Below are positions 14,731 to 40,696 of a stretch of 40,696 nt of DNA, piece by piece (position 1 is the stretch's first letter; each line of letters opens with the position of its first letter). A program made the translations under genes and the position numbers. Origin of the DNA: a virus. Where the stretch lies: the IMG/VR virus record IMGVR_UViG_3300034073_001280, positions 1-40,696 of that record; one strand, given 5' to 3'. The notes below the pieces were generated by a model that was not told where the DNA came from, ran no database searches, and saw only the letters and a program-made list of their open reading frames with translations.

Positions 14731-14770
14731 GTTTTCTCCTTTCAAATATTTCTAGTCCTAAGACCCTCTG

Positions 14771-14844
14771 CCCTCGGTACTCGATTTGAACGAGTATAGT
14801 CGAATTTAGAAGATTCGTTCATTGTCCAGTTATGATAACCGAGG
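14771..14844 (-). tRNA. tRNA-Arg (anticodon UCU)
   Basis: This folds as a complete cloverleaf by eye. The acceptor is CCTCGGT/ACCGAGG (7 bp), the D-arm TCAT/ATGA with loop AACTGGACA. The anticodon stem CGAAT/ATTCG has loop CTTCTAA (anticodon TCT), and the T-arm ACTCG/CGAGT has loop TTCAAAT. The variable loop is 5 nt and the discriminator base G73, as in bacterial Arg(UCU). CCA is not encoded, so host CCA addition would be needed. It reads AGA codons, which are frequent in AT-rich phage genes but often rare in hosts. Confidence 0.93.
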
Positions 14845-27399: not shown

Positions 27400-27480
27400 C
27401 CGCCTACAATCAATTATCTATGCCTCAGGCTACCTACCCCTTACTTCAGCATTTAAACCACCTTCTAGGGGCCATTAGGG
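27400..27480 (-). repeat. Structured leader element, second copy of 19-bp core
   Basis: The minus strand contains taaggggtaggtagcctga (27443-27425), identical to 33479-33497 on the plus strand. In both copies it is preceded by CCTAGAAG 17-18 nt upstream and it lies ahead of a downstream gene in the sense orientation. It is the 100-bp gap between the genes ending at 27495 and starting at 27394. Confidence 0.7.
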
Positions 27481-27494
27481 GCCTTCCCGAGCCT

Positions 27495-27839
27495 TTAACC
27501 CCGAGCAGCAATCTTATGCTTCAAGCGATATTGCAGAGCAGAGAGCTTTTTGAGTTTTGCTTTGATTTCCCGGTGCTCTCGGAAAAGCATATTCCGCATT
27601 TCATCCCCTACAGGATAGCTCAAGGCTTCTTCCTTGAACTCCTTGCGTACTTGTTCATGCGTTCGGATGTACTGAGCCATCATGTGTTGAAGCATTTGGA
27701 TTTCTGCTTGTGATAGGTATGGTGACTCTCCATCATGATACTTATGAAATTCTCCGTCATAGGGTACATTCCAAGAAAAACCCTCTTGAAGATTAGCTGT
27801 ACTAGAAGAGTCAAAAAGACCACTGATAAATTTGAACAT
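27495..27839 (-). CDS. Hypothetical protein with C-terminal coiled coil, 114 aa
   Basis: The C-terminal half is Lys/Arg/Glu-rich and helical (FREHREIKAKLKKLSALQYR). The N-terminal half contains no recognisable motif. It follows the PcfJ-like gene and ends at the structured leader. Confidence 0.7.
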   Translation of the reverse strand: MFKFISGLFDSSSTANLQEGFSWNVPYDGEFHKYHDGESPYLSQAEIQMLQHMMAQYIRTHEQVRKEFKEEALSYPVGDEMRNMLFREHREIKAKLKKLSALQYRLKHKIAARG

Positions 27840-27872
27840 AATTTACTCCTTTAAAATTTAAACAACTGAACT

Positions 27873-29090
27873 TTAAGCAGATTCTAACTCTCTGTCAATA
27901 ACTTTTTCTTTGTTCTTTTTGTTAAGCATCTCAACAACACTCTTAGCAGCAGCCTTCAAATCTTCATCCTCTACTGCTGCATTACAGAATCCATAGTGCT
28001 GTTGAAGGTTGTACTTGTCTTTACTCATTGCAATGACGTAATTCTCGCACTGTACTGCAATTCCAAGTGTAGTCTCAACACTGCCTTTGGTCAAGTGCCA
28101 TACAAGATATTCACCCTTTGCACACATTCTAGCATAACTACCTACGCAATGATGCATCTTGGAACCTTCCTCTTGAACTTGCTGCATGTTCACCAATGGA
28201 ACAGCTACAACACCAGAATCGAACTCCATAACCTCTAAACCTTTGTGTAACTCCCTGAAGTCAACCTTCAAGAGTTTAGCGTATTCAGCATTGCGCTCTG
28301 CTTGTCGGCGGTTAGCAATCTCTTGTTGCATCCGAGAAAGACGGTCATGCTCTTCCTTCATTCTGCGTTTACTCCAGTTAGGGTTGAAAGTCTCTCCAGC
28401 ACCGATGCACATTCGTTGGGTATCAATATAGATACTAGCTTCTCTTTGAATATTATAGTCCTTGGAGTAATTCTTCAAAGGAATATCTTGAGTACGAATA
28501 AGCCATGAATAGACTTCAGGCGTGAAATGCGTCCTACTTTTTAGAATTGTACTGGGCACAACATTCCAATCTACAGGCGTCAATCGGGCATTACTCTTCA
28601 TGAACAATAATCGGTTGCGGCTGTAACTGTTCTTGCATAACTTCTTCCACGTAGTTTCCCCGAGAGTTTTCTTTAGTTCCTGTGGGGATTTCTTGAAATA
28701 AGCAACAATAGGAATAATATTAGCAATACCGTCCTTTCTACACTGCTGTAGAAGCTCTTCAGTTTCTAGGTACTCAAACCTTTGCCCCATAGGTGTCCAT
28801 GACGTTGTGCGACAAAGTCTGTACCACTCGGGAAACTGCTTGTAGACTTCGTTATAAACAATACCACGAGCAACCCTCACTACATTAGTAGCACGGATAC
28901 CGTGTTGTTCATTAAACTTCTTAGCTTCTTCTTTGAGATAGCGTTTGTTATTTCCGAGGAGATTCTTAGCTGCACTTTTCGGAGGGTTGTTGACAGCAAA
29001 AGAATGAATTTTTTCGCCCCTGTAGTTCCACAAGGTAATAATGGGGACAGCAGATCGTACTTCCCAAGTAAAGCTAATCGGTTTCTTCAT
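27873..29090 (-). CDS. PcfJ-like protein
   Basis: At 405 aa the C-terminal part contains the family pattern EEGSKMHHCVGSYARMCAKG, then YLVWHL and a TTLGIAV strand. A charged helical stretch (about 240-280) precedes it. PcfJ-domain proteins occur in conjugative plasmids and many phages; biochemical function is not established to my knowledge. It is one of the largest unknowns of the leftward block and is expressed near the start of the transcript, implying an early role. Confidence 0.78.
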   Translation of the reverse strand: MKKPISFTWEVRSAVPIITLWNYRGEKIHSFAVNNPPKSAAKNLLGNNKRYLKEEAKKFNEQHGIRATNVVRVARGIVYNEVYKQFPEWYRLCRTTSWTPMGQRFEYLETEELLQQCRKDGIANIIPIVAYFKKSPQELKKTLGETTWKKLCKNSYSRNRLLFMKSNARLTPVDWNVVPSTILKSRTHFTPEVYSWLIRTQDIPLKNYSKDYNIQREASIYIDTQRMCIGAGETFNPNWSKRRMKEEHDRLSRMQQEIANRRQAERNAEYAKLLKVDFRELHKGLEVMEFDSGVVAVPLVNMQQVQEEGSKMHHCVGSYARMCAKGEYLVWHLTKGSVETTLGIAVQCENYVIAMSKDKYNLQQHYGFCNAAVEDEDLKAAAKSVVEMLNKKNKEKVIDRELESA

Positions 29091-29106
29091 ATACCCCCTT
29101 TAAGAT

Positions 29107-29337
29107 TTAAACCGCCACAGGACACACAGCATAACACCCACTAGGATTTGCTTCAAGCATTTTCTTCAGGTCTTCCTCAGCAGATGCTTTTGTTGCGTAA
29201 GAGCTACGAATATTGCATTGCTGACCTGTGAAGGTGTCATGCGCACTGTAGCTTTGGTGAACACCTGCTTGTGGGTTGCTATCAAAATATAGATACCAGA
29301 CTTCTTGTGAGGCGTTCTTTACGATAATGTAGTTCAT
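29107..29337 (-). CDS. Hypothetical protein, 76 aa
   Basis: A beta-rich, Ser/Tyr-containing protein with three Cys, start ATG 29337 at the end of the preceding gap. It begins MNYIIVKNASQEVWYLYFDS. Not recognised. Confidence 0.66.
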   Translation of the reverse strand: MNYIIVKNASQEVWYLYFDSNPQAGVHQSYSAHDTFTGQQCNIRSSYATKASAEEDLKKMLEANPSGCYAVCPVAV

Positions 29338-29346
29338 GTGTTTTCC

Positions 29347-29796
29347 TTAATCAAACTCACGATTATAAAACTCCTGTGCAAACACAGATGTACTTTCATC
29401 AATCTTCATACCCAAAGCCTTCAGCATCTTATTCTTTACTGTAGAGTTAGGAAGACGAATGCAATCAGGAGGATTGAATCCTAGCATGATTCCTACTTCT
29501 GCCACAGCACCACTACGACAAAGACCAGCAAAGCAATGCACAATTACATTCATGTGTTGCTCTTTTGCACGTTGCAGTGCATTAGCAATCTCTTGTGCTT
29601 GTAAGTCCGTACAAGCTGTAGGGCCGTCCAGAACATCATCGAACTTAAACTGCAGAACTTCTTTGAACTTGTACTTTGGTGTCGGGAAAGTGTCAAAGAA
29701 ATCCACAATTTGAATTAACATGGAGTTTTCACCAGCGTCTGCATGGTGACCAGTGATGATATTAAATCTACTAGCGTTTTGAATAAAGTTGTTCAT
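29347..29796 (-). CDS. Cys-based protein phosphatase-like (dual-specificity/PTP fold)
   Basis: The signature H87-C88-F-A-G-L-C-R94-S95 (VIVHCFAGLCRSGAVAE) is the C-x5-R P-loop of tyrosine/dual-specificity phosphatases. An upstream FDDV (about 52-55) could supply the general acid. I chose ATG 29796 (149 aa), preceded by AAAGGTG. It may dephosphorylate a host protein or another phosphoester; the target is unknown. Confidence 0.82.
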   Translation of the reverse strand: MNNFIQNASRFNIITGHHADAGENSMLIQIVDFFDTFPTPKYKFKEVLQFKFDDVLDGPTACTDLQAQEIANALQRAKEQHMNVIVHCFAGLCRSGAVAEVGIMLGFNPPDCIRLPNSTVKNKMLKALGMKIDESTSVFAQEFYNREFD

Positions 29797-29805
29797 ATTC
29801 ACCTT

Positions 29806-30015
29806 TCAAAACAACGCATTCCAGCGTTCATTCTTCATCAGAAATTCCAACTCCTCCGTGTTAGCCATCCGACTAAGCAAAGGCCCAGCTTGGTTGGCTA
29901 GTTCTTGCTCTTCTGGTTGCATTCTAACAAAGGGGTTGTGCTTTGCAAGAGTACGGGAGAATTCGAGAGCATCAGCAAGGGTGATGCGACTAGGTAGGGC
30001 TTGGGATAGGGTCAT
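29806..30015 (-). CDS. Hypothetical protein, 69 aa
   Basis: A helical protein starting directly after the stop of the previous gene (TAAATG). Begins MTLSQALPSRITLADALEFS. Not recognised. Confidence 0.66.
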   Translation of the reverse strand: MTLSQALPSRITLADALEFSRTLAKHNPFVRMQPEEQELANQAGPLLSRMANTEELEFLMKNERWNALF

Positions 30016-30207
30016 TTATTGTTCCAACCCTGTGATGTTTTTCACATCGCTACTCTCAAATTCTTGGACAACCCATTCACCGTAACGACCAGCCTCACGC
30101 AGCTCTTGTACTTTCTTGTCTGCTACTTTCTTATTAGGTGTGACACCAAACACATCCATCCATGTGTAGTGGTCTTCAGTGATCCGAGTGATTGCGTAGA
30201 GCTTCAT
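30016..30207 (-). CDS. Hypothetical protein, 63 aa
   Basis: Start ATG 30207 with AAAGGAATC upstream. It begins MKLYAITRITEDHYTWMDVF. The longer frame of 97 aa would extend across the end of the 55-aa gene and lacks a ribosome site. Confidence 0.66.
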   Translation of the reverse strand: MKLYAITRITEDHYTWMDVFGVTPNKKVADKKVQELREAGRYGEWVVQEFESSDVKNITGLEQ

Positions 30208-30292
30208 AGTGATTCCTTTAAGTTGTTTGTTGCGATTTGTTGAATTATGCACGAAGTTCAGGAGGGCGTCAAGGGGTTTCGCAGAAACTGCG

Positions 30293-30460
30293 CTACAGGC
30301 AAGCGTCAAGAAACTCTTCGTTTAAATAGTTCCTGAGTTTTGTAGCCTTTTGCCTGCCGACTACTGTGCAAAAGATGTGCCTATTCGGTGAGTAAATAAC
30401 CCAAGTTGTTTTTGAATCGTCTTGTTGCTTTAAGCCAACACGCATAAAGTACTTTTTCAT
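30293..30460 (-). CDS. Hypothetical basic protein, 55 aa
   Basis: The ATG at 30460 overlaps the stop of the first leftward gene (TGATG), with GAAAGGG upstream. Begins MKKYFMRVGLKQQDDSKTTW. Lys/Arg-rich; not recognised. Confidence 0.62.
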   Translation of the reverse strand: MKKYFMRVGLKQQDDSKTTWVIYSPNRHIFCTVVGRQKATKLRNYLNEEFLDACL

Positions 30461-30663
30461 CAGAAAGCCCTTTCAGGAAAACGCGCCTCTTGCCAATCCT
30501 TCAGTTGAGTACGAATGTTCTTCCATGTTGTACCTTCAGCAATGCACTTCATGAAACCTTTAATGTCCTGCATAACGAGAATGTCCTTGCATTCTTTGGT
30601 TGGCTTGAGGAGGGTAAACTTGAACGTCTTGCAGGCGTAGATCACGTATTCTTTGTCAGTCAT
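30460..30663 (-). CDS. Hypothetical protein, 67 aa, first gene of leftward block
   Basis: Start ATG 30663 with AAGGAG 6 nt upstream, and about 25 nt behind the predicted promoter at 30692-30721. Small early genes at this position commonly encode host-takeover factors, but no motif supports a specific role. Confidence 0.7.
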   Translation of the reverse strand: MTDKEYVIYACKTFKFTLLKPTKECKDILVMQDIKGFMKCIAEGTTWKNIRTQLKDWQEARFPERAF

Positions 30664-30691
30664 GTTTCACTCCTTGTGTGTTGAAAAACTT

Positions 30692-30721
30692 AGTGTAGCA
30701 TGAACTTGTGAAAGAAGTCAA
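30692..30721 (-). promoter_or_regulatory. Sigma-70 promoter driving the leftward block
   Basis: On the minus strand TTGACT (30721-30716), an 18-nt spacer and TGC-TACACT (-10 at 30697-30692 with TGn extension). The start point would fall about 20 nt before the first ribosome site. Confidence 0.75.
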
Positions 30722-30772
30722 CAAAGGATTTGTGTTGTTTGTTTGGCACAGTTCAATCTCTGAAGATTTCGC

Positions 30773-30801
30773 TTGCAATTCCAGAAAGACTGTGGTAAAA
30801 T
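30773..30801 (+). promoter_or_regulatory. Sigma-70 promoter driving the large non-coding RNA
   Basis: TTGCAA (30773-30778), a 17-nt spacer and TGG-TAAAAT (-10 at 30796-30801, TGn extension). It is divergent from the leftward promoter, about 50 bp between the -35 boxes. Predicted start near 30808. Confidence 0.68.
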
Positions 30802-31283
30802 TACAATCATGTGCTAGAAATAGCAACATAGCCAAATTCGGAACCTGCGGGTAGGGTAGCATGGAGTTGCTATCACACATGAGATTCACCAAGTCTTCTC
30901 TCCCACGACACCCAATGTGATACACAGGGTAGGAGCTAACCAGCTTTGATAGGTTAGCGAACTTAGCAGGCGTTGCGCAACTCGTAATGACCCGACCGTA
31001 ACCATACATCTAGACCAAGAGAAGCAGTGATCAACAGCACTCTCTAGATTTCGCAGACGGAAGTATACAGCTTTAGAAACGGCATGAGACTTGTCTCCCT
31101 GATTCTTTAGTTATAACTGCGAGATAACCTGCCCTTCGAGTCGTGGAGCATGACAGAATGAAAGCAAGTTAGGGCTGTAGCAACCTGAAGTGAAAGGGTA
31201 CACCGTGTACTTTCTTTTCACCTCTAAAGTTGCTCAACCTTGCCTGCTTTCAATCAAAGAGCATAAAGTTAATAACATACTAA

Positions 31284-31307
31284 AGTATAACTAAGAGTAT
31301 AACTTAG
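31284..31307 (+). repeat. Tandem 12-bp repeat, possible operator
   Basis: agtataactaag (31284-31295) is followed immediately by agtataacttag (31296-31307), one difference. It lies in the AT-rich 3' part of the non-coding RNA region, before the terminator. Confidence 0.6.
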
Positions 31308-31334
31308 AATACACTACAATTAGACCATTGCACT

Positions 31335-31372
31335 ACCCCTATGAGCTTAACGGCTTGTAGGGGTTTTCTTTT
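31335..31372 (+). terminator. Rho-independent terminator of the non-coding RNA
   Basis: ACCCCTA (31335-31341) pairs with TAGGGGT (31358-31364). An inner GAGC/GCTT helix and loop TTAACG lie inside, and TTTTCTTTTG follows. It precedes the first rightward coding gene. Confidence 0.88.
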
Positions 31373-31414
31373 GTCTAATCGTCTTTCAAAATAATTAAAA
31401 TAAGGATGACTAAA

Positions 31415-32308
31415 ATGAAGTATACCGATGCGTACATCAAATCAGATGCTTTTCTTGATACGTTTGAATGGAGAAAAGTAAGAATGGAAGCTATCTTGAA
31501 ATATGGTAAACGTTGTCAGTGCTGTGGTGCTGTTCCTCTCCCTAGCAACGATGTTAAGATACATGTTGATCATATTATTCCTAGAAAAGTTGATACGTCT
31601 CTCGCACTTGAACTTTCTAATCTACAAGTCTTGTGTAACGTGTGCAATCATGGGAAAGGAAACTGGAATACTACTGATTGGAGGGAGTTTGAGCCACCTG
31701 AAACTAATATAGAATACTCTTGCGATTGTAAAGATAAAAATAAACCTGAAACAAGTAATGAGCACAAACCCATAGCAAGCGTACAGAGATACCTATCTTA
31801 TGACATTAAAATACCGCAAGAAGTGAGGAACAGTATGCGAAGATTTGGGCCTAAGTATAGTCTAGAGTTGGGTGTTATCGTTACTAACTTACTGTTCTCA
31901 TTGACAGAGGATGCGTGCATTGCTTACTCGCGGGCCAAAGGTGCTCATCTAAACCTCAGAAGAAATACAAACGTCTTGAGAATTAATGCTGCAATTGATG
32001 TGCTGGAAGAGGCGGACCTTCTTATTAATTTTATTGGCAAAGGCTCAAAAGAAAAGAAATTTCGTCAATCGAGTACGATTCTTCCTACAGAAGAATTTAA
32101 GAGTGTATATTCGCACCTTATCTCTGATGAAAACTTCATGCTGAAAGTAAAGAACTACTGGCAGAAAGCCAAAAACGAGGTGAAAGCTGTAGCATCCCGA
32201 CCTAGACGAAAAGTAAGTATTAAAAAGAAAGTCCTCCCTAAGAATAATTTAAAAGTCAGAAAAGACGTTATGAAAGAGTTGTTGACAGTGCTAACAACTT
32301 GGGGGTAG
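31415..32308 (+). CDS. HNH nuclease fused to winged-helix-like domain; ends at in-frame amber
   Basis: I chose ATG 31415, 8 nt after AAGGA (297 aa). The N-terminal HNH domain has Cys34/Cys37, Asp52-His53 (VDHIIPRK), Asn69, Cys74/Cys77 and His79. Residues about 128-225 resemble the winged-helix start of a phage/plasmid replication protein family (RRNTNVLRINAAIDVLEEAD, then FRQSSTILPT). A basic tail ends at TAG. The frame stays open for 57 further codons after TAG (next entry). The upstream terminator separates it from the non-coding RNA; its promoter may be the weak TTGTCT...TAAAAT near 31370-31400. Confidence 0.78.
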   Translation: MKYTDAYIKSDAFLDTFEWRKVRMEAILKYGKRCQCCGAVPLPSNDVKIHVDHIIPRKVDTSLALELSNLQVLCNVCNHGKGNWNTTDWREFEPPETNIEYSCDCKDKNKPETSNEHKPIASVQRYLSYDIKIPQEVRNSMRRFGPKYSLELGVIVTNLLFSLTEDACIAYSRAKGAHLNLRRNTNVLRINAAIDVLEEADLLINFIGKGSKEKKFRQSSTILPTEEFKSVYSHLISDENFMLKVKNYWQKAKNEVKAVASRPRRKVSIKKKVLPKNNLKVRKDVMKELLTVLTTWG

Positions 32309-32482
32309 ACTATCCTCTGTGTGCATGATAGCTTCGTTGTAGCGAAAGAGCACCTAGAACTCCTAGTCTTGACAATGGCAGACAAGTTCAGGGAGAGATT
32401 CAAGATTGATTGTCCTGTGCCTATGTCAATCAAATGGAAGGACACTGACAAGAGCGTACTTGAGAAGAAGATTGTGCTTTAA
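32309..32482 (+). pseudogene. Polymerase-like C-terminal remnant in frame after the amber
   Basis: In the same frame as the HNH gene, translation continues TILCVHDSFVVAKEHLELLV to a TAA at 32480-32482. The VHDSF motif is typical of the palm of single-subunit polymerase-like replication proteins, whose N-terminus is a winged helix like that in the preceding gene. The catalytic middle is missing. I read this as a deleted, amber-interrupted relic. Programmed read-through of TAG giving about 355 aa is the alternative. Confidence 0.6.
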
Positions 32483-32497
32483 CAATTGTTGCAAATT

Positions 32498-32521
32498 CAC
32501 TACATAAGTTGATAAGTAGTG
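32498..32521 (+). promoter_or_regulatory. Inverted repeat upstream of promoter
   Basis: CACTAC (32498-32503) and GTAGTG (32516-32521) form a perfect 6-bp inverted repeat about 20 bp before the -35 at 32540. It is a possible operator. Confidence 0.45.
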
Positions 32522-32539
32522 CAGATTTCAAACAAGTGC

Positions 32540-32567
32540 TTGACAAAGTAGATTTTAATGCTAGTAT
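32540..32567 (+). promoter_or_regulatory. Sigma-70 promoter for the rightward small-gene block
   Basis: A perfect TTGACA (32540-32545), 16-nt spacer and TGC-TAGTAT (-10 at 32562-32567 with TGn). The start would be about 25 nt before the first small gene. Confidence 0.72.
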
Positions 32568-32595
32568 CACAATACTTTAACTAAAGGACTAACCC

Positions 32596-32724
32596 ATGTA
32601 CCAACTCCGCAAACACCGCTGCATGTACTACATCTTCTTTGGAGACAAGCAAATCTCTCAAGGGATGTATAAGCAACAGGCTGAGAAAGAGATTGCAAGG
32701 ATGATTGAAGAGTTGTATGCTTGA
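32596..32724 (+). CDS. Hypothetical protein, 42 aa
   Basis: First gene after the promoter at 32540. Begins MYQLRKHRCMYYIFFGDKQI, ends MIEELYA. AAGGACTAACCC upstream is a fair ribosome site. Not recognised. Confidence 0.62.
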   Translation: MYQLRKHRCMYYIFFGDKQISQGMYKQQAEKEIARMIEELYA

Positions 32725-32786
32725 GGCTTCTAAATTTAATTGAAAGTGAGTAGCAAAGCTACAAACGATAATGAAAGGAAACTAAA

Positions 32787-32816
32787 ATGACAACTTTTAA
32801 AACTGGAGGCTTTTAA
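32787..32816 (+). CDS. Possible 9-codon leader peptide (MTTFKTGGF)
   Basis: ATG 32787 follows GAAAGGAAAC and ends with TAA directly against the next ATG (TAAATG). Its codons for Gly-Gly contain the GGAGG ribosome site of the following gene, so it may serve coupling. It may be incidental. Confidence 0.35.
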   Translation: MTTFKTGGF

Positions 32817-33149
32817 ATGACTATCGCAACTGACATGGGATTTGAGGTTGGTAAACTGTATCGTGTAATCAACGACGAGAATTCTTTTTACTACAAAAAC
32901 GGAATGATTGTGGAGTTTATAGAAGATGACACATCTGACGCGCCTTGGTTTGGGTATGTATCTGGGCCGATTGGAGAAAGTATTCGTTATAGCCCTGAAC
33001 AACGAATTGCAATACCTCTTGAACACCTTGTTCCAGTAGAAACCCCAAAGACCTACGAAGCCTCTACAAACAAACCTCTTCTCCTTCTGTACATCCAGCA
33101 GCAATACCCTGATGACAAGGTGCTGAAGGCTTTGGTGGAGAGTCTGTGA
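32817..33149 (+). CDS. Hypothetical protein, 110 aa
   Basis: GGAGG lies 7 nt upstream. The N-terminal part (FEVGKLYRVINDENSFYYKN) looks like a small beta-barrel and the C-terminal 30 residues are helical. Overlaps the next gene as TGATG. Not recognised. Confidence 0.7.
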   Translation: MTIATDMGFEVGKLYRVINDENSFYYKNGMIVEFIEDDTSDAPWFGYVSGPIGESIRYSPEQRIAIPLEHLVPVETPKTYEASTNKPLLLLYIQQQYPDDKVLKALVESL

Positions 33150-33424
33150 TGCAAATCCTAGACTATAACCTAGTCCTCACCTGTCAATGCTGCCCTGAGC
33201 AATACGATGTTCTTGATGTAGAAGGAAAGCAATCTGGATATATCCGTCTTCGTGGAGGGAACTTCCGAGTGTACTATCCCGATACAGGTGGAGAACTTGT
33301 GTTCTATCATCGTTTTGAGGATGACGCATGGAAGGGCATGTTCGACAACGACGAAGAACGAGAAAAGTACTTGACAGAGGCTGTTAAAGCGATTCATAAT
33401 AGAATCAAAGAGGTTAAGGAATAG
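33149..33424 (+). CDS. Conserved phage hypothetical protein, 91 aa
   Basis: Starts at the ATG overlapping the previous stop. The pattern LTCQCCPEQYDVLD and YIRLRGGNFRVYYPD is one I have met in other phages without a known function. The Cys pair CQCC might bind metal. Acidic helical C-terminus. Confidence 0.72.
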   Translation: MQILDYNLVLTCQCCPEQYDVLDVEGKQSGYIRLRGGNFRVYYPDTGGELVFYHRFEDDAWKGMFDNDEEREKYLTEAVKAIHNRIKEVKE

Positions 33425-33437
33425 AGAATGCCTCTAG

Positions 33438-33534
33438 AATCGCTTTAAAGGCACCTAGAAGCCCCTTAAAGCATTGACTAAGGGGTAGGTAGCCTGAAGG
33501 TGCTAGAAGGGCTTAAAAAGCGTTTAAAACGATT
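33438..33534 (+). repeat. Triple-nested structured leader element with repeated 19-bp core
   Basis: Three nested arms: AATCGCTTTAAA (33438-33449)/TTTAAAACGATT (33523-33534) with one mismatch, GCACCT (33451-33456)/AGGTGC (33498-33503) and CCCCTTA (33462-33468)/TAAGGGG (33479-33485). The core 33479-33497 recurs exactly at 27425-27443 on the other strand. It lies in the 5' leader of the gene at 33547, 13 bp before its ATG. Confidence 0.72.
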
Positions 33535-33546
33535 TAAGGAGAAATT

Positions 33547-33744
33547 ATGCAAATACAACGAACGCCTCACGGCTTTGACTGGAACTGTGCTAAGATTGAA
33601 TGCCTAGCTTCTGATGAGAAGAAAGGTTGGATTTATCTTGGCGTGACAACACCTAAAGACTCTATCGAGATTTATATTACGAAGTCCGGTAAGATGCGTG
33701 TGTATAATGCTAAGGACTCGACTAACAAGAAGGAGATACTATGA
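33547..33744 (+). CDS. Hypothetical protein, 65 aa
   Basis: TTAAGGAG precedes the ATG. A beta-rich basic protein (WIYLGVTTPKDSIEIYITKS). Directly downstream of the structured leader element and so the first candidate for control by it. Not recognised. Confidence 0.67.
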   Translation: MQIQRTPHGFDWNCAKIECLASDEKKGWIYLGVTTPKDSIEIYITKSGKMRVYNAKDSTNKKEIL

Positions 33745-33926
33745 CTAAAACAGAAATTATCGCAAAGATTGAAGATTTGTACGAACAACTACGTGACAAT
33801 GAGTACAGTAGCTGGTACAATCGCCCTACGACGACTTCGTGGGAAAACTCCTATGAGTACACCCGGTACAGCGAATTGAATACTGAACAAGAAAAACTCG
33901 TTATCGAACTTGAGAAAGCCCTTTAA
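33741..33926 (+). CDS. Hypothetical protein, 61 aa
   Basis: Start overlaps the previous stop by ATGA. Acidic, Tyr/Glu-rich and helical at both ends (MTKTEIIAKIEDLYEQL, KLVIELEKAL). Not recognised. Confidence 0.65.
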   Translation: MTKTEIIAKIEDLYEQLRDNEYSSWYNRPTTTSWENSYEYTRYSELNTEQEKLVIELEKAL

Positions 33927-34094
33927 ATGAAGAAAACCCTAGTCAAGAGCATTAAAATCTCCTTCCAAGAGAAGACCTCTAAAGGCTTTGTTGATCGCTC
34001 TTTTGATACACCAAAGGAGCATCTGGAATGGCACTTGAGCCAGATGAAAAAGAGTCCTGATTTCATCAGGGGTGTTTCGTATCGTAATATTTGA
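33927..34094 (+). CDS. Hypothetical basic protein, 55 aa
   Basis: ATG immediately after the previous TAA. Begins MKKTLVKSIKISFQEKTSKG and ends VSYRNI. Coupled translation is likely since no strong ribosome site is seen. Not recognised. Confidence 0.62.
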   Translation: MKKTLVKSIKISFQEKTSKGFVDRSFDTPKEHLEWHLSQMKKSPDFIRGVSYRNI

Positions 34095-34107
34095 ATAAGG
34101 AGTAATT

Positions 34108-34266
34108 ATGTTTTGGATTGTTCTGTTTACCCATACTGTCTGGTTGACTTTGGCTGTAGGTCAGATGTATACTAAGGAACCTATCGAACCTTGGCGGTAT
34201 TTTGTGGCTGTACTGGCCTGTACCATTTGGGCTGTACCTAGTGCTTTTAAAACTTACGGAGGTTAA
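34108..34266 (+). CDS. Small membrane protein, 52 aa
   Basis: AAGGAGTAATT precedes the ATG. Two hydrophobic helices (about 2-19 and 31-46) flank a short acidic/Pro turn. Its stop abuts the next ATG. Confidence 0.66.
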   Translation: MFWIVLFTHTVWLTLAVGQMYTKEPIEPWRYFVAVLACTIWAVPSAFKTYGG

Positions 34267-35289
34267 ATGAAAATCCAATATTACTCAACAAACATTGGAG
34301 TATTTTTCAAGATTGACGGATATTATTCGCACTACGATTTGTCAGGACATTTTGGTATTGTTGAAATCAACGGTAAGGACGTTACTCCGCTTGTACCTAA
34401 CAACGGGTGGTATCATTTTGAAGGTGAACTCAAGGACTTCAAGAAGCGCAACCCTCCGAAGAAGGAGCAGGTTGGCTGGAAGCTGATCAATCCTGAACTT
34501 GCTTCAGATAAGATTCCTTTGGCTCTCAACATGGGGCAATTAAAGCAAGTCTGGGATTCCGATGAGGATGAATATACTTATCATGGTGCCTATGCAAGTC
34601 TCGCTAGCCTCTATCAAGCGGATTGCACCGAACTTCCTGCAGAGATTGTTCCTGTGGAAGTAGAACTTGTTAAACTCCGTGACTTGCACATCGAAAACTA
34701 CGAAGCTCCTTCAGAAATGAAGATTCAGGTTCAAGATGGTAATTACGGTGGTAAACTTCAAGTACAGGACTTGAGCAAGGTTGCCGTCTTTGCTGATATT
34801 GAGCGAATGCTGACTCCCGATTTCCTCTTGCACACTCGTCCTTGCTCTTTGACAAGCGAACAAGTCTACAAGATTGTCCGTGCTCACATCCTGAATAACA
34901 TTGATGGTAAGGCAGCTCGTGTAACAAGTAATTATGATTTTTGCTTTGTAGTAGAAAAAGTCATTGAGACTAAGCCCTACGAAGTAAAGACTGAAAAACT
35001 TACTTCGGGTATGCGTAGCTACAAACCTCCACGATTCACTACAGCAACCAAGACGACAAAACAGCAGAAAATCTTTGAGATGACTTGGAAGGGCGCTCAC
35101 CACGGAGGTGGGTACACAGGTTATACTTGCATTGAACCTTGGGAAGCTAACAGCCTGAAGGAACTTTATGAGTACATGCAGCAATATTTGAAGGATTTGA
35201 TGCTAGAGATTAACAAACCTGTAGTAGAATGCCAGCACTGCAACGGATTGGGTTGCATTACGAAGACTATTGGGACTAATGCAAGATAA
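34267..35289 (+). CDS. Unknown phage protein with C-terminal zinc-type knuckle, 340 aa
   Basis: The largest intact gene of the rightward block after the HNH gene. There is no recognised catalytic motif. The N-terminal about 60 residues look beta-rich. The C-terminus carries CQHCNGLGC, a DnaJ-like CxxCxGxG knuckle, which would usually come in pairs but is single here. Two earlier Cys residues are isolated. ACGGAGG lies upstream. Role unknown. Confidence 0.75.
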   Translation: MKIQYYSTNIGVFFKIDGYYSHYDLSGHFGIVEINGKDVTPLVPNNGWYHFEGELKDFKKRNPPKKEQVGWKLINPELASDKIPLALNMGQLKQVWDSDEDEYTYHGAYASLASLYQADCTELPAEIVPVEVELVKLRDLHIENYEAPSEMKIQVQDGNYGGKLQVQDLSKVAVFADIERMLTPDFLLHTRPCSLTSEQVYKIVRAHILNNIDGKAARVTSNYDFCFVVEKVIETKPYEVKTEKLTSGMRSYKPPRFTTATKTTKQQKIFEMTWKGAHHGGGYTGYTCIEPWEANSLKELYEYMQQYLKDLMLEINKPVVECQHCNGLGCITKTIGTNAR

Positions 35290-35299
35290 GGAGTAAAAT

Positions 35300-35464
35300 T
35301 TGCCAAAACAAAAACAAAATCGCCACCCAGCAACCCCAACTCAGCAGGACTTTGAGCAAGATAGGTTTTATTACAACAACGAGGAAGATTTCCGTGAAGT
35401 TTTGAGTGAAGTACTGTATGATCTAGACTCAGATGAAGAGCAACGAGTTAGTAAGTTTTGGTAA
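35300..35464 (+). CDS. Hypothetical acidic protein, 54 aa
   Basis: TTG start at 35300 with AAGGAG 6 nt upstream. Begins MPKQKQNRHPATPTQQDFEQ, then an acidic tail (DLDSDEEQRV). Not recognised. Confidence 0.58.
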   Translation: MPKQKQNRHPATPTQQDFEQDRFYYNNEEDFREVLSEVLYDLDSDEEQRVSKFW

Positions 35465-35510
35465 TGAGCTGCTTGCAGCGAAGTATATTGGTAAAATTAA
35501 AGGAGAATAA
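35433..35510 (+). CDS. Possible 25-aa protein overlapping the previous gene
   Basis: ATG 35433 in another frame encodes MKSNELVSFGNELLAAKYIG and five more residues, stopping as TAAATG at the next start. The end-on coupling is suggestive, but no ribosome site is visible. Confidence 0.3.
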   Translation: MKSNELVSFGNELLAAKYIGKIKGE

Positions 35511-35723
35511 ATGGCTACACGTATCGCAACATCAGCTTTAACGGGACGTATATTTGAAGGTAAGGTTGATAGTAAAGGTTTGCACTTTGTTGGACAAAAG
35601 AAAGACGTAACTAGCGATGTATTGAAAGCTGTGATTGACAAAGCAGAATACCACGGAGGTTCTTTTGATATTGAAGGTGGGAATCAAAAGTGGGTTGTTA
35701 CAGTAACTGAAGTAAAGGAATAA
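35511..35723 (+). CDS. DUF7446-like phage protein, 70 aa
   Basis: Begins MATRIATSALTGRIFEGKVD, then DVTSDVLKAVIDKAEYHGG and FDIEGG. I recall this as a conserved small phage family of unknown function. AAAGGAGAATAA precedes the ATG. Confidence 0.75.
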   Translation: MATRIATSALTGRIFEGKVDSKGLHFVGQKKDVTSDVLKAVIDKAEYHGGSFDIEGGNQKWVVTVTEVKE

Positions 35724-35725
35724 AC

Positions 35726-36028
35726 ATGCAAGTAAAATTCGGAGAATTTAACGCCATGAACAACGAGACTATCCAAGTAGTCCCAGAACAAATCGCCGGT
35801 TACGTCATCCAGCGAAGCCCTACAGACAAGTTCAAATTTAACTGCTATGCTGTAGATAAAGAGGACGAACTTCTTTTCTGTGCAGCTTCTGATTTGGACT
35901 TTGAGAAGGCTACTACCCTTGTAGACGCTGTGAACAAGGAGTATTTCCCTGTAGTTCCAAGCCCTACGGAAGTTGCTTTCGTAGAAATTGGTGGAGAGTC
36001 TAAGGTTTATAACATTACTGCGAAATGA
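35726..36028 (+). CDS. Hypothetical protein, 100 aa
   Basis: A mixed alpha/beta acidic protein, two bases after the previous stop, with AAGGAAT upstream. The segment GYVIQRSPTDKFKFNCYAVD is beta-like. Not recognised. Confidence 0.69.
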   Translation: MQVKFGEFNAMNNETIQVVPEQIAGYVIQRSPTDKFKFNCYAVDKEDELLFCAASDLDFEKATTLVDAVNKEYFPVVPSPTEVAFVEIGGESKVYNITAK

Positions 36029-36216
36029 ATACACTTAACGAAACCCTCTCTGGCTTTGTCCCTACTCGTTCTTTGGTCAGCACAAAGGAGATTCATCTCC
36101 GTGGGCTTAAGGGTTCTGGTAAAGACAAGGAGCCTTGGAAAGAAAAAAGCAAAGATAAGAAACGAAAAAAGGATTGGAGTAAAGAACGCGAAAAGAAAAG
36201 AGGCTGGTATGAATAA
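36025..36216 (+). CDS. Hypothetical Lys-rich protein, 63 aa
   Basis: The C-terminal half is extremely basic (KDKEPWKEKSKDKKRKKDWS), a disordered nucleic-acid-binding type tail. Overlaps both neighbours. Not recognised. Confidence 0.64.
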   Translation: MNTLNETLSGFVPTRSLVSTKEIHLRGLKGSGKDKEPWKEKSKDKKRKKDWSKEREKKRGWYE

Positions 36217-36412
36217 TTTGATTCAGATGTTATTTCCTTGGTCAAAAGATGACCCTGTTCTGCACTGCAATGTCTATAAGACAGTAGGTTGCGCGCATGT
36301 GGATGGAATGCTTTGCAATATGAAAACCTGCGATGTAAAAGTGCAGTTAGAAATAACCCCCAGAGGAAAAACAGAGATTTTTCGTGCTGGTCGCTATGAA
36401 GGAGAAACATGA
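36209..36412 (+). CDS. Hypothetical protein, 67 aa
   Basis: I chose ATG 36209 (MNNLIQMLFPWSKDDPVLHC) because the longer frame is a shadow of the Lys-rich gene. Four Cys (positions about 20-41) could form a zinc site. Not recognised. Confidence 0.62.
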   Translation: MNNLIQMLFPWSKDDPVLHCNVYKTVGCAHVDGMLCNMKTCDVKVQLEITPRGKTEIFRAGRYEGET

Positions 36413-36825
36413 AAAACCTCCCAGTGAAAATTAACGATGTTATTGAGGTTCTCCCCGGTTGCCCCTTCTCTGGTCTTGTGTACTCTAAAGGTATTGTCCG
36501 GGAGTCCTTGAGTTTCATGTCCTGTGTAGTAGAATTCCCTGCGGATAAGCGAAGTACCGATGGACAACTTATGGAGACTTTCCAAGGACGTTATTGGTGC
36601 ATCCCTTGGAAGTACCTGCGGGTTGTTGAGAGTGCTTATGATGATAAGGTCTGTGAACTCATGGAAGAACTTCAATCTCTTGAGGATGACTTGATGATTG
36701 CTAGAAGTTGTCTGGTATACTCCGAAGAGATGCGAGAGATTCAGTATGAGCAGATTAAAAAGTTGGTAGAAGATATAGACTTGTTGAAAGCAGAGTTGTA
36801 TCATCTGAAGTTCAATGGTAATTAA
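36409..36825 (+). CDS. Hypothetical protein with C-terminal coiled coil, 138 aa
   Basis: GAAGGAG precedes the ATG, which overlaps the previous stop. The first 75 residues are beta-rich (VKINDVIEVLPGCPFSGLVY), and residues 80-135 form an acidic coiled coil. Not recognised. Confidence 0.7.
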   Translation: MKNLPVKINDVIEVLPGCPFSGLVYSKGIVRESLSFMSCVVEFPADKRSTDGQLMETFQGRYWCIPWKYLRVVESAYDDKVCELMEELQSLEDDLMIARSCLVYSEEMREIQYEQIKKLVEDIDLLKAELYHLKFNGN

Positions 36826-36839
36826 GAAAGGAGTTTAAT

Positions 36840-37148
36840 ATGGGTTACTACACAACATATACACTGAGTACAACTCAAGGCTATGACAACCAAGAGGAAA
36901 TTGAAGAAACACTACAAGAAATCTCTGGTTACTCTGTTAAGTTTGGTTGGAATGATTCTTGCAAATGGTATACTCATGAACAAGACATGAAGGAACTCAG
37001 CAAAATTTATCCAGAGACTATATTCCTTCTTGAAGGAGAAGGAGAAGAATCTGGAGACATTTGGCAAAAGTACTTCAAGAATGGTAAGATGCAGGTGTGC
37101 AAAGCGGAGATTGTATTTCCTGCTTTTGATGAATCGAAACTTGTTTGA
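36840..37148 (+). CDS. Hypothetical protein, 102 aa
   Basis: Starts MGYYTTYTLSTTQGYDNQEE, a beginning seen in several phage and bacterial unknown proteins. Alternating strand and helix with a conserved-looking CKWYTHEQDMKELS. GAAAGGAG upstream. Confidence 0.71.
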   Translation: MGYYTTYTLSTTQGYDNQEEIEETLQEISGYSVKFGWNDSCKWYTHEQDMKELSKIYPETIFLLEGEGEESGDIWQKYFKNGKMQVCKAEIVFPAFDESKLV

Positions 37149-37160
37149 GAGGAAATTGAG

Positions 37161-37385
37161 ATGAAAGACACCAAGGAATTAAATGCAGGGATTGCGTTGC
37201 TTGCTCTTCAGAACTTTGATGAAGCACAAGTACTTTCTGAAGAAGACTACACCAAAACTGTTGCAATGGTATATCGTCTTGAAAAGACTCCTTTGTACAA
37301 AGATTCTAAAGATTCAGATAATGCTATCCACATCCAGCAAGCTTTTACGCTGATTGAAGAATACCTCAAGGAACAAGGAGTTTAA
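37161..37385 (+). CDS. Hypothetical helical protein, 74 aa
   Basis: Helical, acidic, Ala/Leu-rich (ELNAGIALLALQNFDEAQVL). GAGGAAATTGAG upstream of the ATG. Not recognised. Confidence 0.67.
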   Translation: MKDTKELNAGIALLALQNFDEAQVLSEEDYTKTVAMVYRLEKTPLYKDSKDSDNAIHIQQAFTLIEEYLKEQGV

Positions 37386-37386
37386 C

Positions 37387-37590
37387 ATGAAGCAATTCAA
37401 AGAAGGTCAGATTGTAAAAGCTACTCAAGATGCGCCTTACGTAACAGCAGGAGAAATCGCTGAAGTTAAGATGAGTCTCATCAGCCTTGATCTTATACTT
37501 GTGTTTCATGAAGGTATAGATGATGAAAGTGCTTTTCCTTGTAAGCAAGCGAATCCAGAGCACTTTGACTTCTACGAAAAGATTGCCTGA
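37387..37590 (+). CDS. Hypothetical SH3-like protein, 67 aa
   Basis: I chose ATG 37387, with AAGGAG 6 nt upstream (MKQFKEGQIVKATQDAPYVT). A short beta-barrel-like pattern. Not recognised. Confidence 0.66.
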   Translation: MKQFKEGQIVKATQDAPYVTAGEIAEVKMSLISLDLILVFHEGIDDESAFPCKQANPEHFDFYEKIA

Positions 37591-37755
37591 GCCTTTGCTC
37601 AATCTAAAATCGCAAGCGGAAGGCGACGACTTCTAGGAGAAGCCACCTTGCTTACCGCATCGAGATAACTAAGTTAAAAGAGTCCTTCTGACTCGCCTAT
37701 TCACTCGGGCAGAATACGAAGGAAGCTCTCGAACCCTATAACCTAAAGGAGTTTT
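37591..37755 (+). other. 165-bp non-coding gap with several hairpins
   Basis: Perfect short stems: GCCTT (37591)/AAGGC (37620), CTTCT-AGG-AGAAG (37630-37642) and GAGTC-CTTCT-GACTC (37680-37694). TCCTTC can pair alternatively with GAAGGA at 37718. No U-run, no cloverleaf and no open frame. Possibly a small RNA or long leader of the next gene. Confidence 0.4.
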
Positions 37756-37965
37756 ATGAATGAACTAGACACAGCAAAACTCATCATCTATGTAATGACC
37801 ACATCCATCATGAAGATCAACCCGCAGTATTTCAGTAAAGAAGCTCTTGCAGCAATCGGGAGAAATGAAGTACAATTGCTGAAGAATCTTAGTGAAGTGC
37901 TAGACGAGGACTTGACGCTGAATGAGTTGATTATTAACGTATTTGATAAAGAAAGGTTTCATTGA
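37756..37965 (+). CDS. Hypothetical protein, 69 aa
   Basis: AAAGGAG precedes the ATG. A helical protein (MNELDTAKLIIYVMTTSIMK) with acidic C-terminal half. Overlaps the next gene as TGATG. Not recognised. Confidence 0.66.
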   Translation: MNELDTAKLIIYVMTTSIMKINPQYFSKEALAAIGRNEVQLLKNLSEVLDEDLTLNELIINVFDKERFH

Positions 37966-38171
37966 TGTTAAAGAATATTTGGGCTTTCCTTACTGGAGGA
38001 AAAGTTGTGTGGTTGCAAGACCACGATGGTGAACTAACCCGTACAATTGCGTACAAAGCCGGATTCGGTAAAATGCAAGCTAGGCGAATGATGTTCACAG
38101 GAAAAGTCACACTGAATGAAGATGGAACAGTGTCTGGTAAACCTTACGTTGATTATTGGAGTTATGAATGA
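37965..38171 (+). CDS. Conserved small phage protein, 68 aa
   Basis: Starts at the overlapping ATG 37965. The segment VVWLQDHDGELTRTIAYKAG, with an Arg/Met-rich middle, recalls small proteins of unknown role in other phages. Confidence 0.68.
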   Translation: MLKNIWAFLTGGKVVWLQDHDGELTRTIAYKAGFGKMQARRMMFTGKVTLNEDGTVSGKPYVDYWSYE

Positions 38172-38332
38172 CTACAACAACTAAAGACATTACAGAATAC
38201 CTAGACAATAAAGGTGTAAACTACAACGAAATTCGTTTCAGTGCATTGTTGGCTCAGTTGGATTGGGAACAACTTGAGGATTTGTTGAATATTATTAAAG
38301 ACGGTTACGAAGAAGGCGCTGCAAGTTGGTAA
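38168..38332 (+). CDS. Hypothetical acidic protein, 54 aa
   Basis: ATGA overlap with the previous gene. Begins MTTTTKDITEYLDNKGVNYN, ends EEGAASW. Ends as TAATG into the hydrolase gene. Not recognised. Confidence 0.62.
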   Translation: MTTTTKDITEYLDNKGVNYNEIRFSALLAQLDWEQLEDLLNIIKDGYEEGAASW

Positions 38333-38853
38333 TGCAGAAATTAAAAATTTCTTGGTTGATTTTCATTTTTATTCTCGGAATTTCATTCCCCTCCCTTCTT
38401 TCTATTCCCTCAAAGAGTAGAGAGTCTGGAGGGATTGTTGTATCTGAGTATCATAATAAAGAGTTTAGGTGTCTCGTCAACACTCTGTATGCAGAAGCCA
38501 GATCAGAACCAGAAGAAGGTATCCGTGCAGTAATGTCTGTAATCTACAACAGAAAGAAAGCCAAAGGCTATCCTAGTACCTTCTGTGGAGTTATACTCCA
38601 AGACAAGCAATTTAGTGCTTTTAACTCAGACAAGAACCTAGCTACAAAGCCTTTAAAGCCCATTAGAGAGCTTGACAAAGAAGCGTACCGTAAGGTATCA
38701 TCTGTTGCACAGGAAGCTGTCCAAGGGGCTTTTAAGCCTGTTCTTGACGAAGATGTGTTGCATTATGCTCACACGAAAGTAAAGAATAAGTGGACTAAGA
38801 AGTTTGAACGTGTTAAAGTCATTCATCAGCATGTTTTTTATAAGGAGATTTAA
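38332..38853 (+). CDS. Cell wall hydrolase, SleB/Hydrolase_2 family, signal-anchored
   Basis: A peptidoglycan hydrolase. I chose the coupled ATG 38332 (173 aa). Residues about 7-26 are a hydrophobic export signal or anchor. The catalytic domain has LVNTLYAEARSEPEEGIRAV (Glu55 the likely catalytic residue), IYNRKKAKGYPSTFCGVI and QFSAFN. A C-terminal HYAHTKVKNKW with a following HQHVFY completes the family pattern. It lies far from the endolysin, among early-type genes, so it may serve entry, spacing or superinfection rather than final lysis. The ribosome site is weak, so expression may be low. Confidence 0.86.
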   Translation: MQKLKISWLIFIFILGISFPSLLSIPSKSRESGGIVVSEYHNKEFRCLVNTLYAEARSEPEEGIRAVMSVIYNRKKAKGYPSTFCGVILQDKQFSAFNSDKNLATKPLKPIRELDKEAYRKVSSVAQEAVQGAFKPVLDEDVLHYAHTKVKNKWTKKFERVKVIHQHVFYKEI

Positions 38854-38933
38854 ATGCAAGACCTGTTTGATATTCAGCCTCAACTTTCGACATTACTCCT
38901 GAACTAATTAAAGAATTTAGAATGTACATATGA
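38854..38933 (+). pseudogene. Frameshifted 26-codon small gene
   Basis: ATG 38854 (AAGGAGATTTAA upstream) encodes MQDLFDIQPQL then a stop at 38905. A -1 shift near 38886 continues FDITPELIKEFRMYI to a TGA that overlaps the next start as ATGA. The coupled end supports the second frame being ancestral coding sequence. A single-base indel or sequencing error is likely. Confidence 0.4.
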
Positions 38934-39112
38934 ATCGACAAGAAATCATCCAACTAGCAGAATCTCTAGGACTTCTCTACCCAGAACCTAAGTCCTCTTC
39001 GGATTACAACTCTCCAGCGCATATGCGATTGATTTCTAAGCTGGAGAAGTTTGCTATGTCCGTAGCTTGGCATGAGAGGAATAAAGAGTTTCTGAATTCT
39101 GAAGAATCTTGA
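38930..39112 (+). CDS. Hypothetical protein, 60 aa
   Basis: Begins MNRQEIIQLAESLGLLYPEP; helical with a Ser-rich loop. Starts in the ATGA of the frameshifted gene. Not recognised. Confidence 0.65.
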   Translation: MNRQEIIQLAESLGLLYPEPKSSSDYNSPAHMRLISKLEKFAMSVAWHERNKEFLNSEES

Positions 39113-39153
39113 ACGAAAAGCTAAAAGTACCTTGGATTTTATAGGAGAACAAC

Positions 39154-39516
39154 ATGCAGCACTTTGACACCCTAGAGCACTACACCGAAGAAGATTTTGA
39201 TTACATCTTGTACCAACCAAGTAGCAAGAAGCCCTATCTCGATCCTGAACTCAAGCAGTTTTACTTCGTGTACGAGGATGCTTGGGGCACTGAGTACGAG
39301 TTGTTTACAACGGTAGAATGCATCTGGAAGGTTATCCCTCCTGATCCTACTACTTGGGCTTCAGATTTGGATTATCATGGGCATGTAGAGCTAAAATCAT
39401 GGGAGGTCATCTCTGTAGAAGACCATGAAGGTAACGAGGTTAAACCAGAAGATGTGTTGACAGATAAGCAGTTGTTGGCTTATACTCAAGGCTTGGAACA
39501 GTTTGTAGAGTCTTAA
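39154..39516 (+). CDS. Hypothetical acidic protein, 120 aa
   Basis: AGGAGAACAAC precedes the ATG. Rich in Asp, Glu, Trp and Tyr (FYFVYEDAWGTEYELF), with strand-rich middle and helical end. Not recognised. Confidence 0.71.
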   Translation: MQHFDTLEHYTEEDFDYILYQPSSKKPYLDPELKQFYFVYEDAWGTEYELFTTVECIWKVIPPDPTTWASDLDYHGHVELKSWEVISVEDHEGNEVKPEDVLTDKQLLAYTQGLEQFVES

Positions 39517-39544
39517 ATTGTAATTATTTTGAAAGGAAACCAAA

Positions 39545-39724
39545 ATGGAAATCCAAAAAGCAAAAGAACTTCGTGATAAGCTGCAAGAAGATATCTTGAG
39601 TCTTATTAAGAAGTTTGAAGAGGAGACTGAGACACATATTCATTACGTGAATCTAGATTCTGTGCAGATGCTAAAAAATCCTTTGCATAATACGGTAAAG
39701 GTTGAGGTAGAATTTAGGTTCTGA
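39545..39724 (+). CDS. Hypothetical protein, 59 aa
   Basis: GAAAGGAAACCAAA precedes the ATG. The N-terminal helix (MEIQKAKELRDKLQEDILSL) is followed by a beta-like end. Not recognised. Confidence 0.65.
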   Translation: MEIQKAKELRDKLQEDILSLIKKFEEETETHIHYVNLDSVQMLKNPLHNTVKVEVEFRF

Positions 39725-39852
39725 AACTCTTAAATGAAAATCGTTTTCAGATTTCGGATTTTTCGGGTGATTTTGAAAAGGTTGTCACGGAATTGCTGGG
39801 GATTTTGTAGAAATTCTTGGAAAATTGCGGGACAATCTTGATTTCATTGTAG

Positions 39853-39890
39853 TTTCGGTATAAACTCAGGTTTCATAAATCGTACCGAAA
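39853..39890 (+). promoter_or_regulatory. Inverted repeat overlapping a -10-like box
   Basis: TTTCGGTA (39853-39860) and TACCGAAA (39883-39890) form a perfect 8-bp inverted repeat. TATAAA at 39859-39864 is a -10 candidate with a poor -35 (TTGATT, 15-nt spacing). It lies in the 188-bp gap 39725-39912, which otherwise holds only AT-rich sequence with a GAAAA-TCG-TTTTC hairpin. Confidence 0.5.
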
Positions 39891-39912
39891 GAATAGCCAA
39901 GGAGTATCAACT

Positions 39913-40275
39913 ATGTCAAAGAGTAAGAAGTTAGTCTATCAAGAAGGCATCACCAAGAAGCATGAAGTGCTGAAGGAGGCTATGAAGTATCTTGATGTTA
40001 AAAGTCATAGTCATCCCCCAGATAAGTACGAATTTATCTGCAATTGCATCAATCAAGTGGTGAACGGTAATCCTATGTGTTTCAATGATGCATCGGGTCT
40101 GCTTTCAGTTATTGAAAGCCGTCTAGGTAGTTATGATACGTTTAATTCTTATCTTCACCACGTTCACAATATTCATCCAGAAGTGCAAGATCAAAACGAT
40201 GGTTGTAAACTTCAGATAACAAGAAAAGCGTGGATGCAAAGCATGTATGAAGAATATAAAGCAAAGGATGAATAA
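39913..40275 (+). CDS. Hypothetical protein, 120 aa
   Basis: AAGGAGTATCAACT precedes the ATG. Helical, with several His and Cys (YEFICNCINQVVNGNPMCFN). Not recognised. First gene after the inverted repeat at 39853. Confidence 0.7.
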   Translation: MSKSKKLVYQEGITKKHEVLKEAMKYLDVKSHSHPPDKYEFICNCINQVVNGNPMCFNDASGLLSVIESRLGSYDTFNSYLHHVHNIHPEVQDQNDGCKLQITRKAWMQSMYEEYKAKDE

Positions 40276-40277
40276 TT

Positions 40278-40583
40278 ATGACTAAAGTTAAATACACAGT
40301 ACAAGATATTCTTAATCTGCCAATGCAAGAAAACGATGCAAGTGCAGACACAATTGGAGATTACTTGCAAGAACTTCTTTCTTCTTTGTGGGAAGAAGGT
40401 GACGGTTTTAGTGGTAAGCGCCCTTTTGGTAATTCAAATTGGGAATCAGAGCTTTATCATACTCTTGTAATGCATGAAATCATCCAAGGTGAAATCATTG
40501 ACGGATACCTTGAAAGTTATGACGAAAAGAAAGGTTATAAGATCATCAAAGAAGCTATTCAAAGAATGTATATGCCTGAGTAA
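40278..40583 (+). CDS. Conserved phage hypothetical protein, 101 aa
   Basis: The pattern TIGDYLQELLSSLWEEGDGF, then SGKRPFGNSNWESELY, is one I recognise from other phage genomes, where it has no assigned function. Last gene before the terminator. Confidence 0.74.
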   Translation: MTKVKYTVQDILNLPMQENDASADTIGDYLQELLSSLWEEGDGFSGKRPFGNSNWESELYHTLVMHEIIQGEIIDGYLESYDEKKGYKIIKEAIQRMYMPE

Positions 40584-40621
40584 TAAACTTCAATCAACAA
40601 GTTATGTTTTTGTAATATTAT

Positions 40622-40678
40622 AAACCCCTTGATTTATTTCTCCTAATTTGGGGAGTATTCAAGGGGTTTTCTTTTTCT
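40622..40678 (+). terminator. Strong rho-independent terminator ending the rightward block
   Basis: AAACCCCTTGA (40622-40632) pairs perfectly with TCAAGGGGTTT (40659-40669), with an inner CTCC/GGAG pairing, followed by TCTTTTTCTT. Confidence 0.92.
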
Positions 40679-40696
40679 TGAAAAAATCTTACGGCC

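Follow-up and report, generated by a model that had tools for sequence, protein, structure and literature searches.

Gene setting and control signals of the region

The window, meaning the whole stretch of DNA that was analysed, is a 40,696-bp IMG/VR fragment of a freshwater phage, in which the region from 30808 to 31372 separates two outward-facing gene clusters. The leftward cluster carries replication and metabolism genes (polymerase, primase-helicase, ribonucleotide reductase) and the rightward, accessory cluster carries an HNH gene, the anti-Gabija protein Gad1 at 34267-35289 (Pfam Gad1, E 1.6e-57) and a cell-wall hydrolase. Comparison of the DNA polymerases grouped the phage with Curvibacter phage P26059A (65% identity) and Limnohabitans phage DC31 (64%), and the nearest near-complete IMG/VR records reached 68-69% identity. 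The parts of the window that were compared (6745-28937 and 27525-40696) were identical to a 74,818-bp record, G001, in which the RNA is present once; G001 is a second assembly of the same phage and contributes no evolutionary information. The genes between about 27.1 and 38.3 kb were mostly without homologues in the relatives, so the RNA probably entered the genome together with a variable accessory region or originated within one.

Within 30664-31405 (740 bases), we observed no gene-like frame. The longest ORF (117 aa, 30656-31009, minus strand) scored 0.05 per codon for codon usage, compared to 0.16-0.43 for real genes, and the six frames of the region gave neither a hidden protein nor a significant PHROGs match. 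The initial annotation had seen no credible rightward gene here; codon usage, PHROGs and the six frames bear this out, and do so for both strands. The GC content was 0.45-0.53 across much of 30850-31150 versus approximately 0.41 genome-wide, and the cumulative GC-skew minimum falls at this same region, with its promoter and divergent junction. The features of the locus are presented in Table 1.

Table 1. Coordinates of the features described in the text (window positions, except in the last row)
Feature	Position	Strand	Basis
Opposing promoter-like site TTGACT-18-TACACT for the leftward cluster	30692-30721	-	sequence match
Sigma-70-like promoter TTGCAA-17-TAAAAT, TG before -10; predicted start near 30808	30773-30801	+	sequence match
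Candidate non-coding RNA, predicted start to end of T tract	30808-31372	+	fold z -4.82; non-coding codon usage
5' hairpins (30813-30824, 30855-30874)	30813-30874	+	pair probability 0.88 each
Multibranch core closed by CCACGAC/GUCGUGG and AGGGUAGG/CCUGCCCU	30903-31146	+	75 pairs; predicted fold
3' arm, an interrupted hairpin of 39 pairs	31156-31255	+	z -5.04
AT-rich AGTATAACTNAG tandem repeat, resembling repeats at relatives' divergent junctions	31276-31312		sequence similarity
Intrinsic terminator; AGGGGTTTTCTTTT end recurs at 40662-40675	31335-31372	+	terminator scan, sequence match
HNH gene: N-terminal HNH endonuclease domain, C-terminal part weakly like phrog_4756	31415-32308	+	domain/PHROGs matches
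Frameshifted C-terminal remnant, possibly of a phrog_4756-like gene	32309-32482	+	weak match, E 0.024
tRNA-Arg-adjacent RNA in related records	L148:23264-23580 (DC31 44962-45276); L098:12832-13145; L106:13018-13362; L089:12952-13273; L109:13055-13376		

A promoter had been assigned to the RNA by the initial annotation. The sigma-70-like match is present as described, but such a strength is common by chance (55 matches found versus 40.6 expected in the 20 kb scanned). The score of the site alone is at chance level, and its position is supported by the architecture of the relatives' junctions, which likewise appear to hold outward-facing promoter-like sites when their sequences are read by eye. 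Further promoter-like sites were found downstream at 32282 and 32540. The AT-rich repeat may act as DNA, probably as a control element. Repeats of the AGTATAACT/AGTTATAACT type occur there and at the junctions of the related records L098, L148 and L147, as a candidate binding-site array. In L096 and L098 (approximately 1600-1720 and 2070-2180), a short ORF that begins with MGMKNGNYF and shows synonymous differences directly follows the junction promoter-like site, and is possibly a leaderless small protein.

The clean terminator previously proposed for the right-hand end holds. With 13 pairs at 31335-31364 and a T-rich tail, it outscored every other terminator in a scan of the window's last 20 kb, and the copy of its end sequence sits after the window's last rightward genes. 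The HNH gene, which has its own ribosome-binding site, begins approximately 43 nt past the terminator, its likely start being 31415 with AAGGATGA upstream. The similarity of its C-terminal part and of the frameshifted fragment to phrog_4756 is weak and suggests a composite or decaying gene at 31415-32482; gene decay so close by keeps alive the explanation that the region is a spacer folded by chance.

Predicted fold of the RNA

The full 30808-31372 sequence folded at -163.5 kcal/mol (z -4.82), with 0 of 100 shuffles as low, whereas z was -2.63 when the terminator was removed and -2.03 for the reverse strand. The core gave a z of -3.57, for boundaries picked after folding, and its helix probabilities were mostly 0.76-0.97, with high values for both closing helices and most hairpins. 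The 3' arm, folded as 31154-31257 and thus without the terminator, was not equalled by any of 200 shuffles. Beyond the terminator, the excess stability in these predictions rests on the arm (z -5.0) and the core (z -3.6). Windows of 200 nt placed the fold signal mainly in the 3' part, at 31100-31500; approximately 1% of the phage's other 200-nt windows also reach z -4.5.

The region had been described as a large ornate RNA with at least six perfect helices. The nested arm (31156-31255) and a bulged 12-pair arm (31010-31047) do exist in the predicted fold, but perfect hairpins are not enriched: 2 of 6 bp were counted versus 1.4 expected, a number equalled or exceeded in 77 of 200 shuffles. Complementary 7-bp pairs showed a modest excess (21 versus 10.8 expected; 5 of 200 shuffles reached 21), and a single pairing of this kind, such as the GAGTTGC/GCAACTC once put forward as competing or long-range, is within chance. 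GGGTAGG/CCTGCCC, supposed to be a tertiary contact, instead forms the helix that closes the core in the best fold (mean probability 0.86 for 30926-30933 paired with 31128-31135). What stands is a non-coding, structured unit bounded by a terminator, with a core whose excess stability is moderate and with no homologue found. Overall, the folding results make real structure likely, and "ornate" is a generous word for it.

Relatives and known RNA families

Among phages and plasmids, blastn found the RNA in the same phage only, and in 50 related records it found no copy; the short matches in relatives (query 405-431) fall inside ORFs. The result was the same with nhmmer over all loci, with single-sequence covariance models of the core and the arm, and with exact-pattern scans of viral contigs and genome contigs, none of which led to anything outside the same phage. 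The surroundings of eight pattern matches were read and held no further similarity to the RNA. As a positive control, the same tools applied to the same relatives recovered another RNA, adjacent to tRNA-Arg, with clear covariation. A structured region at 77.7k of record G027 was rejected as a homologue, since only the AT-rich motif was in common. Antisense targets of the RNA within the window were no better than those of shuffles.

The Rfam covariance models, including GOLLD, ROOL, HEARO and the group I intron, gave no match to the RNA at curated scores, and only unrelated chance matches at E up to 10. The ROOL RNA forms a homo-multimeric cage. GOLLD and ROOL are frequently found near tRNA islands, and a ROOL example solved by cryo-EM measures 659 nt (PMC12286853). 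The candidate resembles them in being large, structured, non-coding and phage-borne, but it differs by the lack of a covariance-model match, of a tRNA island and of homologues found, and the nearby tRNAs to which the initial annotation pointed are missing here: the only tRNA in the window lies at 14770-14844, 16 kb off. Like HEARO, it would be a structured RNA immediately upstream of an HNH-domain gene; in contrast to HEARO, this neighbour combines a small HNH domain with a phrog_4756-like part and is not IscB, and contigs with relatives of the HNH gene carried no such RNA. For a group I intron, there was neither a catalytic-core match to the Rfam model nor an upstream exon, the upstream sequence being a leftward gene (30460-30663) and then the promoter region. 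As for the new class once suggested for 30808-31372, the region is a candidate orphan RNA; a single genome does not make a class, which is neither shown nor excluded.

The RNA recovered as a control spans approximately 310 nt and lies 3' of tRNA-Arg(tct), next to the polymerase gene. It is 70-90% conserved across DC31 and many relatives, and at least 16 records of related phages contain it. In a nine-sequence alignment, compensatory change was observed at 15 of 64 pairs, with a covariation score of 0.244 compared to 0.152 for shuffles and ≤0.089 for slid controls, numbers of a kind that relatedness inflates. Its model, R3, also detects G027, G030 and G032 and has no match in the window's phage or in P26059A; the best score in the window, 10.5 bits at 37001-37050, is at chance level. 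Rfam recognised only the tRNA itself. Both RNAs are structured, non-coding and from the same phage lineage, but the tRNA-Arg-adjacent one is shorter, lies elsewhere and has many members with covariation, and R3 misses the candidate. It is a conserved, covarying family absent from Rfam, and a firmer subject than 30808-31372. In P26059A (L147:23450-24440), approximately 1 kb around tRNA-Arg is devoid of annotated genes and is not matched by R3; its first 700 nt, tRNA included, fold with a z of -6.3. A separate leader hairpin motif, GCCCCU..AGGGGUAKGUAGCCUGA with varying flanking helices, lies before genes in five phages (window 27428-27439, minus strand, and 33483-33494, plus strand; G027:78022; G040:34085; G041:74077; DC31:14511) and looks like a cis-regulatory RNA.

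Possible role of the RNA

The explanation that we favour, with a probability of about 45%, is a discrete untranslated RNA of approximately 560 nt, transcribed early from the divergent promoter, most likely trans-acting and recently acquired. Its transcription, rightward and probably by the host RNA polymerase early in infection, would begin in the divergent promoter region and end at 31364-31372. In the cell, the fold would consist of small hairpins at the 5' end, a multibranch core that is closed, and a long arm towards the 3' end. The RNA would most likely act in trans; it might, for instance, be a scaffold or a decoy to which a host or defence factor binds. The timing and the trans role are suggested by the position beside Gad1, and a trans role with recent acquisition appears most likely because the RNA lies at the edge of the variable Gad1 cluster and the closest relatives are without it; the trans role is the weakest step. 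In favour of a discrete RNA, we counted its non-coding character, the fold z values, the raised GC and the strength of the terminator, together with a promoter placed at the GC-skew minimum and at a divergent junction as in the relatives, Gad1 downstream, neighbours unmatched in relatives and antisense targets in the window at no more than chance level. Against it, we counted the lack of a homologue, and with it of covariation, the promoter score, the z without the terminator, the share of other windows with equally low z, and a downstream gene close enough to the terminator to fit a leader.

The main rival is precisely such a leader, a long 5' leader of the rightward cluster starting at 30808, whose terminator would act as an attenuator, with read-through, perhaps by a phage factor, expressing the HNH gene onward. 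The short distance to this gene and its own ribosome-binding site are consistent with it, as are the short or structured leaders at the relatives' junction and another terminator of the same phage, ending AGGGGTTTTATTTT, just before a gene start (G001:45410). In addition, the RNA contains three copies of GGGTAG (30849, 30854 and 30927) and one of CTACCC, in the 5' arm of the terminator (31333), so that an anti-terminator pairing is possible from the sequence. However, the terminator is strong, there are promoter-like sites further downstream, and the first downstream gene looks partly degraded; we regard the leader as possible, if on balance unlikely. This degraded, composite-looking neighbour counts towards a decaying or spacer region, in which the control region at the divergent junction and the terminator are real but the old sequence between them folds well by chance. 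The chance-level count of perfect hairpins, the very low z of other phage windows and the absence of the RNA from every relative point the same way. We nevertheless consider this explanation rather unlikely, given the z of the 3' arm without the terminator, the raised GC within an AT-richer genome, and a promoter and terminator that are intact where a coding remnant is absent.

A function of the DNA itself, as a replication origin or an operator array at the divergent junction, would account for the GC-skew minimum and for the AT-rich repeats shared in kind with the relatives' junctions. It is very improbable: skew tracks gene direction too, the repeats make up only about 35 of the 565 bases, and the core, the arm and the terminator would be left unexplained. 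That the RNA belongs, in diverged form, to a known family of large RNAs or ribozymes (GOLLD, ROOL, HEARO or group I intron) is suggested by the size, the phage setting and the adjacent HNH gene, but is extremely improbable in view of the Rfam results, the distance to the only tRNA, a neighbour that matches the HNH domain only and the missing upstream exon.

Returning to the discrete RNA, its reading as a trans-acting, large phage RNA of a new type, acquired beside an anti-defence cluster and countering a host defence factor as a structured scaffold or decoy, is speculative and doubtful. If real, the RNA would be one more orphan among the few large RNAs of phages whose function is unknown, and its place beside Gad1 would allow a role of RNA in counter-defence to be tested.
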